Shown here one piece after another: positions 16,291 to 23,335 of a stretch of 52,853 bases of DNA. The stretch is from contig CAMKRZ010000023.1 in the NCBI GenBank assembly GCA_946415315.1, forward strand, positions 1 through 52,853, given 5' to 3'. How positions within the stretch are numbered: the stretch's first letter is position 1; every line of letters starts with the position of its first letter. The notes under the pieces were generated by a model that saw only the letters and a program-made list of their open reading frames with translations, did no database searches and had not been told where the DNA came from. Position numbers and translations under genes: made by a program. The stretch comes from an uncultured Lachnoclostridium sp. Lineage in GTDB: Bacteria > Bacillota > Clostridia > Lachnospirales > Lachnospiraceae.

Positions 16291-16728
16291 ATGACACAAG
16301 GAATCGCACATGCGGCATTCAATGTCGGAGACATGGAGAGAACGATCGCGTTTTACGAGGAGACGCTCGGATTCCGGCGAGCGTTCGACATTCCCAGACC
16401 GGAGAACGGCGAGCCGTGGATCGTCTATCTGTACGGCGGTGGAGGGCAGTTCATCGAGCTGTTCTACGGCGCGACGAAGGAAAATCCCTACCGGGACGAG
16501 AACATCGGTTTCTTCCACATCTGTGTCGCAGTGGAGGATATTCACGAGGCGTGGCGGAAAATCGTGGAGACCGGGGCGCCGCAGGATGATGCACCGAAGC
16601 AGGGAGCGGATTTCAACTGGCAGTGCTGGACGCACGATCCGGACGGCATCAAGATCGAGCTGATGCAGCTCGACGAGAAGAGCCCGCAGATGAAGTTCAT
16701 CCGCGAGGCGGAAGCGTCGATGAAGTAG
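16291..16728 (+). CDS. VOC superfamily (glyoxalase/dioxygenase-like) protein
   Basis: 145 residues with two beta-alpha-beta-beta-beta modules. Metal-site candidates in the usual places are H7 (GIAHAAFNV), the Glu of QFIELFYG, the His of GFFHICVAVEDIHEAW and the Glu of GIKIELMQ, which together would make an octahedral metal centre. MERTIAFYEETLGFRR is the typical substrate-side helix. The family covers glyoxalase I, dioxygenases and antibiotic-resistance proteins; the reaction here is undetermined, though the four-ligand set favours a lyase/isomerase. The ATG at 16291 follows AAGGAGGA at 16276-16283. The open frame back to 16114 has no ribosome-binding site and crosses the promoter. Confidence 0.85.
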   Translation: MTQGIAHAAFNVGDMERTIAFYEETLGFRRAFDIPRPENGEPWIVYLYGGGGQFIELFYGATKENPYRDENIGFFHICVAVEDIHEAWRKIVETGAPQDDAPKQGADFNWQCWTHDPDGIKIELMQLDEKSPQMKFIREAEASMK

Positions 16729-17153
16729 TATTTTTCGAAAAACGAATTCTTATTGAAACGGACGGGAGTCCGGCAAAATCTCCGAAGTCAGACAGAGTAC
16801 GGCTTTGGCGGATGTTGCCGGGCTCCTTTTGCCATTTTGCGTAATGATAACGCCTGCATACCGTGTCCGGACCGGCCGTGAGGCGAACATGACCGGGCGT
16901 GAACAGTCTGATGACGGACATTCGCATTTTTCCGGGGTGTGTGGTATAATACACGAAGACGGGCGCGGACCGGAGAGACAGCCGGAACCGAAAGAACCGA
17001 TATATTAACCAAACATTAATCTTTCTCCCCTTTTTATTTAAGCTTCGGGCGGTATGATGAGCTCGTAATCAAGAGAGCGCGCTTGTGTGGCGCGGAGAAA
17101 TAAAACATCATATCGAACAAATCGAAAGCCAAAAAGGCGGAAAGGTGATCAAC
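16729..17153. other. 425-bp intergenic region before the DUF4342 gene
   Basis: I see no gene. A clear TATAAT lies at 16945-16950 inside GTGTGGTATAATACAC, with a weak TTCGCA 18 bp upstream. A second possible -10, TATGAT, lies at about 17053. Several short GC-rich dyads (for example CGGAC/GTCCG near 16760) are present, but none is followed by a T-run. Confidence 0.4.
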
Positions 17154-17777
17154 ATGGAAAGAACAGAAAAGATTCAGAAGCTTTGCCTGAAAATGAATGT
17201 GAGCGAGAAGGAGGCGGACGACGCCCTTCGCGCATGCGGCGACGACATCCTCGATGCGGCGCTGTACCTCGAGGCACTCGGACGCGTGAGAATGCCGAGC
17301 GGCGGTTTCTACGCGGAGACGCCCGGTCCTGAGAGAAACGCGCAGTCGCAGAACACGAGACATGCGAGTGAGACGTTCGGTGAGGCGGTTCGCCGCTTCG
17401 GTCGCTGGACGCTCGGAGTGATCAAGAAGGGCATGAACAACTACATCGAAGTTCGCAAGAACAGCGAGACAACCTTCCGGGTTCCGCTGACGATCTTCGT
17501 GATCGCGCTCTTCACACCGGCGCTTCCGGTGATCATCGCACTCCTTGTGATCGGACTCTTCTTCGACTACAGCTACCATTTTACGGGTCCGGATCTGAAG
17601 GACAACAACCTCGGCAATGCGGCAGCGAAGGGTTGCTACGACGTAGCGCATGACATCAAGAGAAGCTTCGCAAATGAGGGTTGCAACTGCACCGCAGGCG
17701 CAGAGAACGGCAACGGCGCGGCAGGCGCACCCGGCGCTGACGGTTTCGGCGGCAAGGGCGGCGACGGAGAGTTCTGA
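17154..17777 (+). CDS. DUF4342/UBA-like membrane protein
   Basis: 207 residues. The first 45 (EKIQKLCLKMNVSEKEADDA followed by LRACGDDILDAALYLEALG) form the UBA-like helical domain seen in DUF4342 proteins and in the N-terminus of EF-Ts. A linker follows, then one long or two close hydrophobic segments (FRVPLTIFVIALFTPALPVI with ALLVIGLFFDY after it). The tail is Gly/Ala/Asn-rich with two cysteines (CNCTAG, GAPGADGFGGKGGDG). The family function is unknown. The start at 17154 has AAAGGTG upstream; the longer frame to 17085 includes a poorly supported GTG/ATG region. The three-hairpin array follows its stop codon after 51 bp. Confidence 0.75.
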   Translation: MERTEKIQKLCLKMNVSEKEADDALRACGDDILDAALYLEALGRVRMPSGGFYAETPGPERNAQSQNTRHASETFGEAVRRFGRWTLGVIKKGMNNYIEVRKNSETTFRVPLTIFVIALFTPALPVIIALLVIGLFFDYSYHFTGPDLKDNNLGNAAAKGCYDVAHDIKRSFANEGCNCTAGAENGNGAAGAPGADGFGGKGGDGEF

Positions 17778-17828
17778 TGATACAGGGACAATGCAAGGAT
17801 CCCTGAACGTAATATAACGAGGAAAATG

Positions 17829-17963
17829 AGGATGCCCCACGGTGGTGAGCACAGGGCATTCTGCAGAAAAAGACTTTCGGACACCCCACGGTGGTGAGCA
17901 CAGGGTGTCCGGACCGAAGCGAAAAGTATGGGCGCCCCACGGTGGTGAGCACAGGGCGCCTGT
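17829..17963 (+). repeat. Three tandem covarying hairpins with an identical loop
   Basis: Three copies lie at 17829-17862, 17878-17911 and 17928-17963, about 50 nt from centre to centre. Each has the same 16-nt loop CACGGTGGTGAGCACA closed by CCC/GGG. Outside that, the stem sequence changes from copy to copy while pairing is kept: AGGATG/CATTCT (one G-U), CGGACA/TGTCCG (perfect) and ATGGGCG/CGCCTGT (two wobbles). Stems are 9, 9 and 10 bp. Within the loop, GTG and CAC could form an apical stem over GTGAG. No T-run follows any copy. The array lies between the DUF4342 stop and the response-regulator ATG. A simpler hairpin, CAGGGA/TCCCTG, is at 17783-17805. I do not recognise the element. Confidence 0.85.
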
Positions 17964-18016
17964 AACTGATAGATAGAACAAAAACGAAGGAATTTTTTCC
18001 GGAGTATGGAGGTAAC

Positions 18017-18700
18017 ATGGCGACGAAGGTTCTGATCGTGGAGGACGAGGAACAGATTGCGAGATTTGTCGAGCTGGAGCTGCGGCACGAGGGGTACATG
18101 ACCGACAAGGCCGTGGACGGCCGCACCGGGCTGGAGAAGGCGGAGAGCGGGGAGTACGACATCGTGCTTCTTGACATCATGCTGCCGGAGTTGAACGGGC
18201 TGGAGGTGCTCCGGCGTCTCCGCAAGACTTCGGAAGTTCCGGTGATCCTGCTGACGGCACGCGATTCCGTGATGGACAAGGTGTCCGGACTGGATCTCGG
18301 GGCGGACGATTACGTGACGAAGCCATTTGCCATAGAGGAACTGCTGGCACGCATCCGCGTGGCGCTGAAGAAGAAGGGCTCGCAGGCCAAGGACGAGGGC
18401 GGCAAGCTCACGTGGCACGAGCTCATGGTCGATCCTGCCGCGTACTCGGTGACGTACGGCGGCGCCCCGATCGAACTGTCGAAGCGGGAGTTTGATTTGC
18501 TGGCGCTGCTGCTCACGAACCGCAACATCGTGCTCGGACGCGATACGTTGCTGCAGAAGGTGTGCGGCTACGACTATGTCGGCGAGACCAACGTCATCGA
18601 CGTATACATCCGTTACCTTCGCTCGAAGATCGACGAGCGCTTCGGGGTTCACATGATCCAGACCGTGCGCGGCGTCGGATATGTGATCAAGGATGAGTGA
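18017..18700 (+). CDS. OmpR/PhoB-family response regulator
   Basis: 227 residues. The receiver domain (1-115) has the acidic pocket D10/E11, phospho-acceptor D53 (LLDIMLPE), T80 and K102 (TKPF). The C-terminal winged helix (about 128-227) has ELSKREFDLLALLLTNRNIV, NVIDVYIRYLRSKID and the wing QTVRGVGYVI. TGGAGGT at 18007-18013 sets the start. The cognate kinase gene begins 92 bp downstream. I found no convincing promoter directly upstream; the preceding 240 bp are taken up by the hairpin array, which may lie in this gene's 5' leader. The target genes are not evident from the sequence. Confidence 0.95.
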   Translation: MATKVLIVEDEEQIARFVELELRHEGYMTDKAVDGRTGLEKAESGEYDIVLLDIMLPELNGLEVLRRLRKTSEVPVILLTARDSVMDKVSGLDLGADDYVTKPFAIEELLARIRVALKKKGSQAKDEGGKLTWHELMVDPAAYSVTYGGAPIELSKREFDLLALLLTNRNIVLGRDTLLQKVCGYDYVGETNVIDVYIRYLRSKIDERFGVHMIQTVRGVGYVIKDE

Positions 18701-18792
18701 CAACCGCGGAAAATGAACGGCGGAAGCCGGATTGAGGGAGAAACAACGCGGAAAGGACGGCATAAAAAGTCGTCGAAAGTAAGAGGAACAAC

Positions 18793-20361
18793 ATGGGAAG
18801 AAAGAATAAAACGGCCTCGCCCGGACCGGCGGTATGGACGGGAGAGAGACTGTTAAACCAGCCGTCCGGCGTCTGGATGGACGACGTGCCGGCAAGCCGT
18901 CCGCCGGTCTGGACAGGGGAGACACAGCCTGCCATGGCACCTGCGGGAAACGTTCCTGCGGGATGGCGGGGACAGCCGGCGATGGGCTATGCCGACGGGA
19001 ACGCGCCGATGAATGTGCCTCCGCAGAATTACGGCGGCAACACGCCGATGAACGTACCGCCGGCGAATCTGTCGAAGGCGGCGAAGGAGCCGAAGAAAAG
19101 GGCGGGGTCCATCGCGGGCAAACTGCACCGCATGGTGATCCGGCGCATGTTTTTCGGATATTTCTGGCTGAATCTGATCCTGATCGCGACAACGTGCTTC
19201 TCGTACGTCTCGTATGCGGCGAAGAAGGCGGGAGTCAGTCTGAGCCGGATCAAGGATGTTGCATTTTCCGGAACGTACGAGGATCTGATCGTCACAATCC
19301 GGACACGGGACGGTCTCCTGACGATGACGCCCGGGGCGGCATTCCCGGCGGCGGTGCAGGTTTTGTGTGTGCTGGCGGGATTTGAACTTCTCTCGGTGCT
19401 GCGCGTGATCTGCTTTGACCGGTTCCCGATCCGGAGACGCCTGAAGCCTCTCCGCCAGATGGCGGAAGCCGCGCAGAGCATCAGCGATGCGCAGTGGAAC
19501 GAGGAGAAACTGCAGAACCTGACGTACGCGATCAGCCATGTCGACGCGGAGTCGCCGTCGGATCACGTCCGCACGAACGACCGCGAGCTGACCGGCATCG
19601 AGAAGGCGCTCAACGACCTGATCGACCGCATGCGCGACGCCGCGCGACAGCAGACGCGCTTCGTGAGCGATGCCTCGCATGAACTCCGGACACCGATCGC
19701 GGTGATCAAGGGGTACGCAGATATGCTTGACCGCTGGGGCAAGGAGGACAAGAGCATCCTCGAGGAGGCGATCTCCGCCATCCGCAGCGAGTCCGACCAT
19801 ATGAATACGCTGGTGGAACAGTTGCTGTTCCTCGCCCGTGGTGATGCGGGGCGCCAGCAGCTGACATTACAGCAGACTTCGCTGACCGCGATCATGAAGG
19901 AAGTCTACGAGGAATCCGTGATGATCGACAAGAATCACACGTACGAGTTCCGCCAGGACGGCGAAGGCGACGTCATTTGCTACGGCGACGCGGCTATGCT
20001 CAAGCAATCCATCCGTATTCTGGTGGACAACGCCGCCAAATACACGACCGTCGGCGACACGATCACGCTTCGCGTCGGCATCAACCGGGAATTCCGGCCG
20101 TTCTACTCGGTGCAGGACAACGGTGTCGGCATGAGCTCACACGATGTGGAGCACATTTTCGAGCGCTTCTACCGCTCGGATACCGCGCGTAACTCGAAGA
20201 CCGGCGGCACCGGTCTCGGTCTCTCGATCGCCAAATGGATCATCAACCGCCACCACGGCACCATCATGGTGCAGAGCCGTCCGGAGATCGGAACGCGCTT
20301 TACCATTTTCCTGCATACACAGGAAGCATCGTACAACGACGCGGTGGTGATCGGGGCGTAA
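18793..20361 (+). CDS. Sensor histidine kinase with long Pro-rich N-terminal arm
   Basis: 522 residues. Residues 1-115 are an unusual cytoplasmic arm rich in Pro, Gly, Asn and Trp, with internal repeats (PAVWTGE/PPVWTGE and TPMNVPPANL-like units). Two membrane segments follow (about 118-141 and 183-208), enclosing a short 40-residue extracytoplasmic loop, then a HAMP-like linker. HisKA has H296 in SDASHELRTPIAVIKGY. The ATPase domain has the N-box (SIRILVDNAAKYT), DNGVGM and GTGLGLSIAK. The small outer loop suggests that it senses membrane state or a partner protein rather than a ligand. AAGAGGA precedes the ATG. It pairs with the response regulator upstream. Confidence 0.93.
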   Translation: MGRKNKTASPGPAVWTGERLLNQPSGVWMDDVPASRPPVWTGETQPAMAPAGNVPAGWRGQPAMGYADGNAPMNVPPQNYGGNTPMNVPPANLSKAAKEPKKRAGSIAGKLHRMVIRRMFFGYFWLNLILIATTCFSYVSYAAKKAGVSLSRIKDVAFSGTYEDLIVTIRTRDGLLTMTPGAAFPAAVQVLCVLAGFELLSVLRVICFDRFPIRRRLKPLRQMAEAAQSISDAQWNEEKLQNLTYAISHVDAESPSDHVRTNDRELTGIEKALNDLIDRMRDAARQQTRFVSDASHELRTPIAVIKGYADMLDRWGKEDKSILEEAISAIRSESDHMNTLVEQLLFLARGDAGRQQLTLQQTSLTAIMKEVYEESVMIDKNHTYEFRQDGEGDVICYGDAAMLKQSIRILVDNAAKYTTVGDTITLRVGINREFRPFYSVQDNGVGMSSHDVEHIFERFYRSDTARNSKTGGTGLGLSIAKWIINRHHGTIMVQSRPEIGTRFTIFLHTQEASYNDAVVIGA

Positions 20362-20403
20362 ACCTGCGAAACAGGTCGGACAACGGAATATTGACTTACG
20401 GGT

Positions 20404-20431
20404 CGCCGGACAGATCGTCCGGCGGCCTTTT
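20404..20431 (+). terminator. Terminator of the two-component operon
   Basis: An 8-bp GC stem (CGCCGGAC/GTCCGGCG, 20404-20411 with 20417-20424) with an AGATC loop, then GCCTTTT. Confidence 0.8.
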
Positions 20432-20594
20432 CCGCGGAATGGCTTTCGGCAGACGCCTGTTAAGCGAAGGTTAAATTTTCTTTAAATTTCTGGCATATCA
20501 CATTATTTATTGTCTGCTTTTTGGGGCATATTGTAAGAATACCATACATTTTTCTGCAAAAATTGTTCTTGCGACGGAAAATGAGCCGCAAATA

Positions 20595-20623
20595 TTTATT
20601 TTTTTTTCCGAGTATGGTATACT
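20595..20623 (+). promoter_or_regulatory. Possible promoter of the opp-type operon
   Basis: TATACT at 20618-20623 with a poor TTTATT 17 bp upstream. The T-rich tract at 20597-20608 and the CGGAAAATGA word at 20575 lie just upstream. The -35 box is weak, so an activator may be needed. Confidence 0.4.
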
Positions 20624-20674
20624 GTCGGCAGTTTCTTAGCATTTTGCTGGAGAACAATATAGGAGGTAAAAGAT

Positions 20675-23335
20675 ATGAGCTATAAGAAAGTAATAGCGCT
20701 TATCCTTACTGTGGCCATGGTTCTTTCACTTGCGGCCTGCGGTAAGGAGAACACCACGCCTACTGCTTCTACTCCGACTCCGACTGCAGGAGCGCAGACG
20801 ACGCCCGGTGGCGATGAGACACCTACGCCTACGCCCACGCAGGTTCCGGCTGAGGGAGTTGACCTCTCCCTTGTGAAGGAAGCAGACGGTACGATTTTTG
20901 CAGGTTCCGTGAAGACGGCAAAGCAGTCGGCCGGCGGTGGTGAAGTCGGATACGACATTTATGCAGGTGAGGCCGGCAAGGACTACACCGATGAGAAGTA
21001 CTATACCTACAACGATTATATCGCTGACACGAGTACCCTGAACTGGGATGCCCTGAACTGGGAGACATCCGATGACTCGACGATGCTCAGCTATATGTCT
21101 TCGGGTTACTATGACTTCAAACTGAATTCCAAGAAGGACGGCTGGAGTGTTGTCTGCGAGCTCGCAGAAGCTCTTCCGGTTGATGTTACGAAGGACTATG
21201 TCGGCAAGTACGGCATCAAGGACGGCGAGACCGCAAAGGCATGGAAGATCAAGCTTCGCAGCGATCTCAAGTGGGATGACGGCACTCCGATCAATGCGGA
21301 TACGTTTATTTACTCCGCTAAGGAACTCCTTGATCCCGTTATGCTGAACCGCCGTGCAGACTCTCTGTATGCAGGCGACTTCGCAATCTACAATGCAAAG
21401 AATTATCTGTACTCCGGCAAGGCATCCTGGGATCCGCTCTGCCCGGGCAAGACACCGAAGTATACGCTTGACCAGCTTGTCAAGGGTGACGACGGCGTTT
21501 ACACGACTCCGGACGGCAACAAGCTTGCGTTTGGTCTGAAGACCGCTTACGACTGGAACAGCGGCTACACCTGGGCAGACCTTGTCGAGATGGGGTATGT
21601 TCCGGCAGCTATCTGGGCAGCTATTTCCACATTGGCAGGTGCGGACGGATTTATCCCGGTAACGGATGAGTCGATGGCAGCTCTTTACACATTCACCGGA
21701 AGCGATGACTGGGGCAATGAGGCTCAGACCGATCTTGTCCAGTACATGAGCTATCTGACGCAGAACGGAATTACGACGTGGGACGAGGTCGGTTTCTTCA
21801 AGACCGGCGATTATGAGATCGTTATGGTAACAATCAATCCTACGGCTGATCCGAACTACTATGTTCCTTACAACCTTTCCTCCGCTTACCTGGTAAAGCC
21901 TGATCTCTGGGAGGCATGCAAGAAGTTCTTCAATTCCGAGAAGAAGGAAGTTCCCAAGGACAGCGATGATATCGTATCTGTGACCACGACCTACGGTACG
22001 AGCGTTGAGACGTCTGCAAGCTTCGGCCCTTACAAGATGACATTCTTCCAGGCTGACAAGCAGATCACGTTCGAGCGCAACGATCAGTGGTACGGCTATT
22101 CGGATGGCAACCACAAGGGTCAGTATCAGACTGATAAGATTTCCATCCAGGTTCTCAGCAAGCATGAGACCCAGCTCCTCGCCTTCCTCAACGGTGAGGT
22201 TGACGGTGTCGGTCTGCAGAGTGATGACATGAAGTCTTACGGTACAAGCCCGTATATCCGTTACACTCCTCAGTCCTATACCACGAAGCTTACGTTCAAC
22301 ACGGATCCTGAGTCCCTCAAGACGAGAGGAACGCAGATCCTTGCCAATGAGAATTTCCGCCATGCATATTCGCTGGCTCTGGACCGTGCGAAGTTTGCAT
22401 CGTCCTACACTTCCGCAGGAACCGCAGGTTTCGGTCTCCTGAACAAGATGTACATCTATGATCCGTTCTCCGGTGCTTCGTACCGTGATACGGAAGGCGC
22501 TATGGGCGCTCTGGTAGGTCTCTACGGCCTGAAGTTCGGCGGCGAAGAGGAGTACGGTGACCTTGAGGAAGCGTACGATGCTATCACCGGTTACAACATC
22601 AATGAGGCTCGTGAGTACATGAAGAAGGCGTATGACGAGTGCATTGCAGACAAGTCGTACGACGGAAGCTCGAATGTTGAGATCGAGATGCTTGTATATC
22701 AGGCAGATGACATCTATGTTCAGATGTTCAACTTCCTGAACGATGCGCTGAAGGAAGCCTGCAAGGGTACCGGATTCGAGGGTAAGGTTTCTCTGAAGAT
22801 GACGGTCGACAGCGACTACTACAACACGATGTACTCCGGCAATACGGATATGATCTTCTCCACCTGGGGCGGCGCTGCTTCGTCTCCTTATACAATCCTG
22901 TATGAGTGCTACTGCGACGATCCTACCGGTAACGGACAGCAGATGGAGTACGGCTACGATACCTCGAAGGTTATGGTTAAGATCAATGTCGACGGCGTTG
23001 ACTATGTTGAGTCTCTTCAGAAGTGGGCTCTCTGGGCTGACAACTCCGATCCTGACTGTGTGATCAAGGCAGCTGACGGCACTGCGCTTGCAGCATTCTC
23101 AGATTATGATGCGATGACGAAGGCTAACATTTACGGTATGCTTGAGAAGACGTACCTCGGATCCTTCGTAACGATCCCGATGTACTATCGTAACTCGGCT
23201 TCGCTCGTTTCCCAGAAGGGTGACTATCCGGTTACCCAGTATATCGACCTGATCAACTTCGGCGGTCTTGCATACTATACCTACAAGTATACAGACGAGG
23301 AGTGGGCGTCGGTTAAGGATAATCTGAAGTATTGA
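20675..23335 (+). CDS. Oligopeptide-type ABC substrate-binding lipoprotein
   Basis: 886 residues, well above the usual 530-600 of OppA-like proteins. A lipoprotein signal peptide ends in LSLAAC (C22 lipidated), followed by a Thr/Pro linker (about 28-60) as a spacer from the membrane. The family-5 solute-binding fold is seen in AKAWKIKLRSDLKWDDGTPI, SFGPYKMTFFQADKQITFER and the closing lobe near NFRHAYSLALDRAKF. It captures peptides or similar ligands outside the cell for the permease encoded downstream. Codon use is strongly biased, as in abundant proteins. AGGAGGT lies about 7 nt before the ATG. Two stable hairpins separate it from the permease genes, which would let it be made in excess. 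Confidence 0.92.
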   Translation: MSYKKVIALILTVAMVLSLAACGKENTTPTASTPTPTAGAQTTPGGDETPTPTPTQVPAEGVDLSLVKEADGTIFAGSVKTAKQSAGGGEVGYDIYAGEAGKDYTDEKYYTYNDYIADTSTLNWDALNWETSDDSTMLSYMSSGYYDFKLNSKKDGWSVVCELAEALPVDVTKDYVGKYGIKDGETAKAWKIKLRSDLKWDDGTPINADTFIYSAKELLDPVMLNRRADSLYAGDFAIYNAKNYLYSGKASWDPLCPGKTPKYTLDQLVKGDDGVYTTPDGNKLAFGLKTAYDWNSGYTWADLVEMGYVPAAIWAAISTLAGADGFIPVTDESMAALYTFTGSDDWGNEAQTDLVQYMSYLTQNGITTWDEVGFFKTGDYEIVMVTINPTADPNYYVPYNLSSAYLVKPDLWEACKKFFNSEKKEVPKDSDDIVSVTTTYGTSVETSASFGPYKMTFFQADKQITFERNDQWYGYSDGNHKGQYQTDKISIQVLSKHETQLLAFLNGEVDGVGLQSDDMKSYGTSPYIRYTPQSYTTKLTFNTDPESLKTRGTQILANENFRHAYSLALDRAKFASSYTSAGTAGFGLLNKMYIYDPFSGASYRDTEGAMGALVGLYGLKFGGEEEYGDLEEAYDAITGYNINEAREYMKKAYDECIADKSYDGSSNVEIEMLVYQADDIYVQMFNFLNDALKEACKGTGFEGKVSLKMTVDSDYYNTMYSGNTDMIFSTWGGAASSPYTILYECYCDDPTGNGQQMEYGYDTSKVMVKINVDGVDYVESLQKWALWADNSDPDCVIKAADGTALAAFSDYDAMTKANIYGMLEKTYLGSFVTIPMYYRNSASLVSQKGDYPVTQYIDLINFGGLAYYTYKYTDEEWASVKDNLKY

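Follow-up and report, generated by a model that had tools for sequence, protein, structure and literature searches.

Between two genes of an uncultured Lachnoclostridium sp., in a stretch of 52,853 nucleotides (the window), lie three similar hairpins in tandem. The question raised by this locus is whether the folded form is under selection and, if it is, what the hairpins do there. The three hairpins were confirmed on the + strand (Table 1): the loop CACGGTGGTGAGCACA is common to all of them, and the stems differ yet remain complementary. The core of the hairpin is CCACGGTGGTGAGCACAGG, with a loop of 16 nt, and successive cores begin at distances of 49 and 51 nt, which agrees with the spacing of about 50 nt reported in the initial annotation. 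The outer stem pairings listed in that annotation are all present, with G-T wobbles in copies 1 and 3. The CCC/GGG closing stem, described there as invariant, is indeed paired in the window, but across species only the first closing C-G is near-invariant. On the + strand, the gap folds with the three hairpins formed at -75.1 kcal/mol (z -2.37; 4 of 200 shuffles as good; RNAfold); the minus strand also folds, less well (z -1.60; 10 of 200 shuffles as good). The comparison across genomes described below provides much stronger support than the folding of this single gap.

Table 1. Features of the hairpin locus (positions in the window)
Feature	Positions	Strand	Description
DUF4342 gene	17154..17777	+	Pfam PF14242, 26.9 bits (cut-off 25)
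Gap with hairpins	17778..18016	+	239 nt, between DUF4342 and response regulator genes
Hairpin copy 1	17829..17862	+	loop 17838-17853; 9 contiguous pairs
Hairpin copy 2	17876..17913	+	loop 17887-17902; 11 contiguous pairs
Hairpin copy 3	17927..17964	+	loop 17938-17953; 11 contiguous pairs
OmpR-type response regulator	18017..18700	+	Pfam: receiver and Trans_reg_C
Sensor histidine kinase	18793..20361	+	Pfam: HisKA and HATPase_c

The DUF4342 reading frame is open from a GTG at 17085, but the ATG at 17154 was judged to be the likelier start (PF14242 scores 27.1 bits from 17154). No mention of DUF4342 was found in a literature search. This domain was found in 15 of 150 genomes of the family Lachnospiraceae, at 16 loci (own genome included), and at 13 of these loci, own included, the next reading frame is that of a response regulator, in other genera too. 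The gap between the two genes, measured to the first possible start of the regulator, ranges from an overlap to 239 nt, and several gaps are shorter than 30 nt, which, together with this gene order, makes co-transcription plausible. The hairpin is probably an intercistronic mRNA element, because the succession of DUF4342 and response regulator recurs in other genera; DUF4342 probably opens the operon to which the regulator and the kinase belong, and from gene order and spacing we infer that the three genes are co-transcribed. In a simple scan, the sole promoter-like site on the + strand of 16700-20700 precedes the DUF4342 gene (a weak indication, with two sites on both strands together against 1.5 expected), and no promoter-like or terminator-like site was found on the + strand of the gap. 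The array had initially been placed between a DUF4342 gene and a regulator/kinase operon, with a leader controlling that operon as one of its possible roles. The position was right, but DUF4342 probably belongs to the operon itself; the leader proposal came close, except that the hairpins probably lie inside the DUF4342-regulator-kinase operon rather than in its 5' leader. Further downstream, after the two-component genes, 20675-23335 holds a frame resembling, as judged from its sequence, a peptide-type ABC transporter substrate-binding protein.

The hairpin is present at the same site, between the DUF4342 stop and the response regulator ATG, in 10 of the 22 genomes of the genus (G000, G002, G003, G005, G007, G009, G010, G013, G014 and G019), with three copies in G000, two in G009 and G014 and one in the other seven; the gap of these carriers is 76-243 nt long (n = 10 genomes). 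A search of these relatives with a covariance model, as the initial annotation had suggested, returned 14 strong copies at this one syntenic site, all in the same 10 genomes. With 150 candidates scored per genome, all other matches in the genus reached at most 22.6 bits, and G000 gave no further match at E ≤ 1; a pattern search of G000 found the three copies and three places with two mismatches. Scattered copies, which would have pointed to fragments of an inactive insertion sequence, were not found in the genus genomes. Eight non-carrier genomes have the regulator gene and lack the hairpin, whereas the other four (G006, G011, G020 and G021) are uninformative on its absence, because the regulator gene was not found there at E ≤ 1e-60. 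In a tree of the regulator gene from 18 genomes, which includes partial genes of G003 and G007 and has several poorly supported forks, the 10 carriers form one group (support 100/99), every genome of which has the hairpin, and presence of the hairpin needs one change. The C-terminal tail of the DUF4342 protein is longer in the carriers, and Gly-rich in most of them: measured from the FxGP motif, it has 57-79 residues, compared with 41-49 in seven of eight non-carriers (G012, which was not parsed, is left out of this comparison). Long tail and hairpin are correlated through one event, since both map to the same branch.

It is the variation among these copies that addresses the selection on the folded form. 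The set comprised 14 copies from 10 genomes, 13 of them distinct, with 12 modelled pairs, nine of which are outer pairs. Pairing holds in 97.4% of the cells over the 12 pairs, compared with 78.9% after shuffling and 29-46% with the partner displaced by 1-3 columns; for the outer stem alone, 96.6% of pairings hold (13 distinct copies). Changes on both sides were seen in eight of the nine outer pairs against 4.8 expected (7 of 500 shuffles reach eight), and the covariation score was 0.575, compared with 0.193 in shuffles (0 of 500 reach it); further pair types were not above chance (15 against 13.3; 116 of 500 shuffles). On the tree, with the copy nearest the regulator taken for each genome, at least three changes fall on pair 3 and at least four on pair 4, with both sides changing. 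The selection proposed from the three copies of the window is thus strongly supported, by covariation with its controls and by the tree. The loop changed once across the copies, by a single base (C to A) in G010, where the closing C-G pair is also lost; its constancy is partly favoured by the search, because the copies were first found with the loop pattern, although the whole gaps were nevertheless read. A kept loop with lost pairing, which would have spoken against selection on the fold, was unseen in the 14 copies apart from the closing pair just mentioned in G010 and three outermost cells. Over pairs one to ten of the 14 copies, G-U cells outnumber C-A cells by 7 to 1 (one of the seven G-U cells is in a duplicate row, that of G003 and G007), which favours RNA of the + strand; we infer this to be the functional form. 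The architecture of the element is that of a stem of free sequence, mostly of 9-11 pairs, around a fixed 16-nt loop (C-CACGGUGGUGAGCACA-G).

Beyond the genus, the core was matched with at most two mismatches in 13 of 99 genomes (own included), 10 of which are carriers by position and stem; the two-mismatch matches in G049, G067 and G086 are outside the genus and, from their flanks read by eye, do not precede such a regulator gene. Covariance scans of 397 family genomes (including G000 and G002) and of 391 class genomes (including G000), sets that overlap and whose stricter filters may lose weak relatives, added only one weak match each, and both are probably due to chance. The class match, in G570 (26.8 bits, E 9e-4; some 0.4 such matches are expected in 391 genomes), is a hairpin with a T-run behind it and comes directly after a tRNA-like sequence. 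The family match, in G402 (25.4 bits, E 0.0027 for one genome, that is, about one expected in 397), is a hairpin from another Lachnospiraceae genus (L051:1501-1545) with the core CCACGGTGCAGAGGGCACAGG and a bulged stem; it looks like the motif with the inner helix lengthened, and in apical part and loop it is similar to a hairpin in the gap of G012. The G402 apical pattern, with at most two mismatches, occurs in 49 of 61 genomes of its genus, exactly in G402 only, and a reversed control pattern gave equal matches (85 and 85); such a test would miss a homologue with a different apical loop. The GTDB species collection, scanned for exact 21-mer matches, gave four Lachnospiraceae MAGs and one Saprospiraceae contig, and a 19-mer match was found in one viral contig; both the Saprospiraceae and the viral matches are in coding-looking stretches (by eye). 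The pattern CCACGGTG-N3-12-CACAGG was matched in 59 of the 397 family genomes, with flanks examined for part of the places; among loci with flanks, only copies of the clade have at least six contiguous stem pairs around it, the next-best stems being those of the Saprospiraceae match (five pairs) and of three family matches (four), and the bulged G402 stem falls below the limit of four. Another family member (L118, G187:C58:199-324, minus strand) has three close repeats of CCACGGTGTTCAYCACAGG with fewer than four contiguous flanking pairs.

A stem that is free to change and a loop that is fixed suggest that the stem serves to present the loop to whatever reads it; the hairpin is very probably recognised by something in the cell. 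The best explanation, to which we would give an even chance, is that of a cis-acting RNA element, intercistronic in the mRNA of DUF4342, response regulator and histidine kinase, with a loop read by a putative trans factor. From the constancy of the loop, this factor would most likely be a protein, and, provided that the genes are co-transcribed, the position of the hairpin would make the mRNA stretch from DUF4342 to the regulator its target. Through binding, the amounts of regulator and kinase might shift against that of DUF4342, either because translation of the regulator is uncoupled or blocked or because the stability of the mRNA is set at the gap; with tandem copies, occupancy would be higher. 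In 5 of 10 genomes the last core begins 47-51 nt ahead of the regulator ATG, with the base of the stem about 20 nt upstream of the ATG, and no stem takes in the ribosome-binding site of the regulator in the gaps of the carriers. This position fits a control of regulator translation by steric hindrance or through coupling, or a control of mRNA stability; the distance from core to start varies from 47 to 100 nt overall, which counts against this explanation. Tandem copies are spaced at 49, 51, 50 and 49 nt in three genomes, although the spacers differ. The multivalent site for an RNA-binding protein proposed earlier survives as a binding site, but several sites are not required, since 7 of 10 genomes have one copy. 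A dedicated binder must be assumed, because the element sits at one locus. As for the proteins of the operon, the output domain of the regulator is DNA-binding, and the DUF4342 tail, which has a net negative charge in 10 of 10 carriers, does not look RNA-binding from its composition.

In several sister genomes, the corresponding gap contains hairpins that lack this loop (by eye). G008, G016 and G018 (L062, L063 and L060) share a hairpin with a GGCCGGG stem followed by TCTTTCG, a long hairpin whose loop is different lies in the gap of G012, from the sister group (by eye), and extra hairpins are seen by eye in the gaps of G019 and G002. These fit a generic hairpin role equally well. The hairpins could accordingly serve in processing, stability or partial termination between operon genes, with the loop as a recognition site for an RNase or the degradosome, an explanation that we consider unlikely but worth keeping in mind, given the intercistronic place, the A-rich unpaired flanks before most copies (by eye) and, in the part of the source available, a proposal that hairpin clusters terminate transcription without the need for poly A/U trails (PMC8355165). 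Ordinary stability or terminator hairpins would not, however, be expected to fix a 16-nt loop while the stem drifts, there is no terminator-like + strand site at the hairpins, and most carriers have a single copy. The fixed and exposed loop might instead pair with a small RNA that acts in trans, or the hairpins might themselves be a small RNA or a sponge, which appears improbable. Pairing of the loop with the 16S anti-SD tail gives -11.4 kcal/mol, a value equalled by 3.5% of shuffled loops, but the 11-mer complementary to GGTGGTGAGCA was matched at 36 places among the 10 carriers, 14 of which are the hairpins, and none of the 18 examined among the other 22 recurs in more than three genomes among the matches listed; an 11-mer search would miss a shorter or imperfect partner. 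An element acting as DNA (a regulator binding site, a cruciform or a single-strand DNA hairpin) is very improbable: CCACGGTGG inside the core is near-palindromic and the adjacent protein is a DNA-binding regulator, but the arms vary freely yet stay complementary, which is needless for a double-stranded site, the G-U excess is on the + strand, and no further strong locus was found in the genomes of the genus.

The loop can be written CAC-G-GUG-GUG-AG-CAC-A, and it allows exactly two Watson-Crick GUG/CAC helices of 3 bp, which cross. The best structures with one or the other helix have energies of -15.8 and -15.5 kcal/mol, and, among composition-keeping shuffles of the loop, 1.6% allow a crossing pair and 15.6% have two or more helices of whatever kind, in a test conceived after the loop had been seen. 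If the inner helix forms, an inner loop of 5 nt (GUGAG) is left; this helix lacks covariation support, because it never varies. A small-ligand aptamer or bistable switch, in which a ligand would select one of the two near-equal helices, draws on this rare arrangement, but is quite improbable: the C to A change in G010 breaks one of the helices, no expression platform can be seen, and the genes give no hint of a ligand. Both helices together look sterically unlikely, since one base would have to span 6 bp; with one helix lost in G010 and a pseudoknot that looks too tight, the two-register loop is possible only. A bolder form of the cis-acting element, in which a new RNA operator of one clade, with a dedicated reader and a two-register GUG/CAC loop, would set the expression of sensor and regulator through the number of hairpins, is distinctly doubtful; if true, it would be a post-transcriptional dial on signalling without a known relative.

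The statement that the array fits no known family holds against Rfam 15: only two tRNAs exceeded the gathering cut-off in the whole window, and a permissive local scan gave best scores of 18.6 against a cut-off of 45 and 10.4 against 57. In a literature search, the loop letters were not found, titles and abstract beginnings held nothing on the motif, and nothing was found on LoaP with dlx and hairpin. This compact structured RNA motif was apparently undescribed before. It appeared once on the tree, in a gene pair recurrent in other Lachnospiraceae, and may be an instance in which a two-component system acquired post-transcriptional control within one lineage. It is also a good bait for a new RNA-binding regulator, because it is small, has a strict loop and offers a natural series of one, two and three copies.

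Several known systems can be set against this element. In a CRISPR array the sequences flanking the core would be unrelated spacers, whereas here they are complementary to each other, and the copy is single in most carriers. The many dispersed copies of REP/RAYT or MITE-like mobile elements were not found in the genus genomes, and the REP-like unit suggested initially is contradicted by the one syntenic locus and the one change on the tree. The GC hairpin with T-run of an intrinsic terminator was not found on the + strand in a simple scan, the hairpins matching on the minus strand only. A leader peptide through the hairpins (G000, G014 and G009, by eye) was dropped, because the reading frame that crosses the loop is not the same from genome to genome. 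ANTAR proteins, among them the response regulator EutV, target tandem small hairpins in mRNA whose fixed loop residues are read by the protein; the sites are described, in the part of the source available, as having stems of about 3 bp, hexanucleotide loops in which the first and fourth positions are conserved, and a terminator as the alternative structure (PMC3369931). As far as that description goes, the hairpins studied here resemble the dual-hairpin targets of EutV, NasR and AmiR in being small, in tandem and in mRNA, with fixed loop residues, but their stems are mostly of 9-11 bp, the loop has 16 nt (or 5 nt with the inner helix formed), the hairpin is often single, and neither the hexanucleotide loop with A at position 1 and G at position 4 (the loop is CACGGUGGUGAGCACA, with inner GUGAG) nor, in a simple scan of the + strand of the gap, a terminator-like site was found. 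An ANTAR protein is present in 20 of the 22 genus genomes, with and without the hairpin, and there is no link between the two. ANTAR proteins are not a favoured partner, because they are present regardless of the hairpin and the loop is without the ANTAR signature as described. RNAs of the CsrB/RsmZ type also repeat a hairpin, and a protein binds the loop motif that the copies share; here there is no GGA in the loop, the copies number one to three, and the element is intercistronic rather than a separate gene. As far as the available parts of the sources go, this motif differs from candidate structured RNA motifs (Rfam and motif surveys) in having no Rfam 15 match and in being found only in one clade inside a genus, but it shares with them the covariation, the conserved loop and the single gene context, and it would be a new instance of a structured cis-acting mRNA element with a putative reader.
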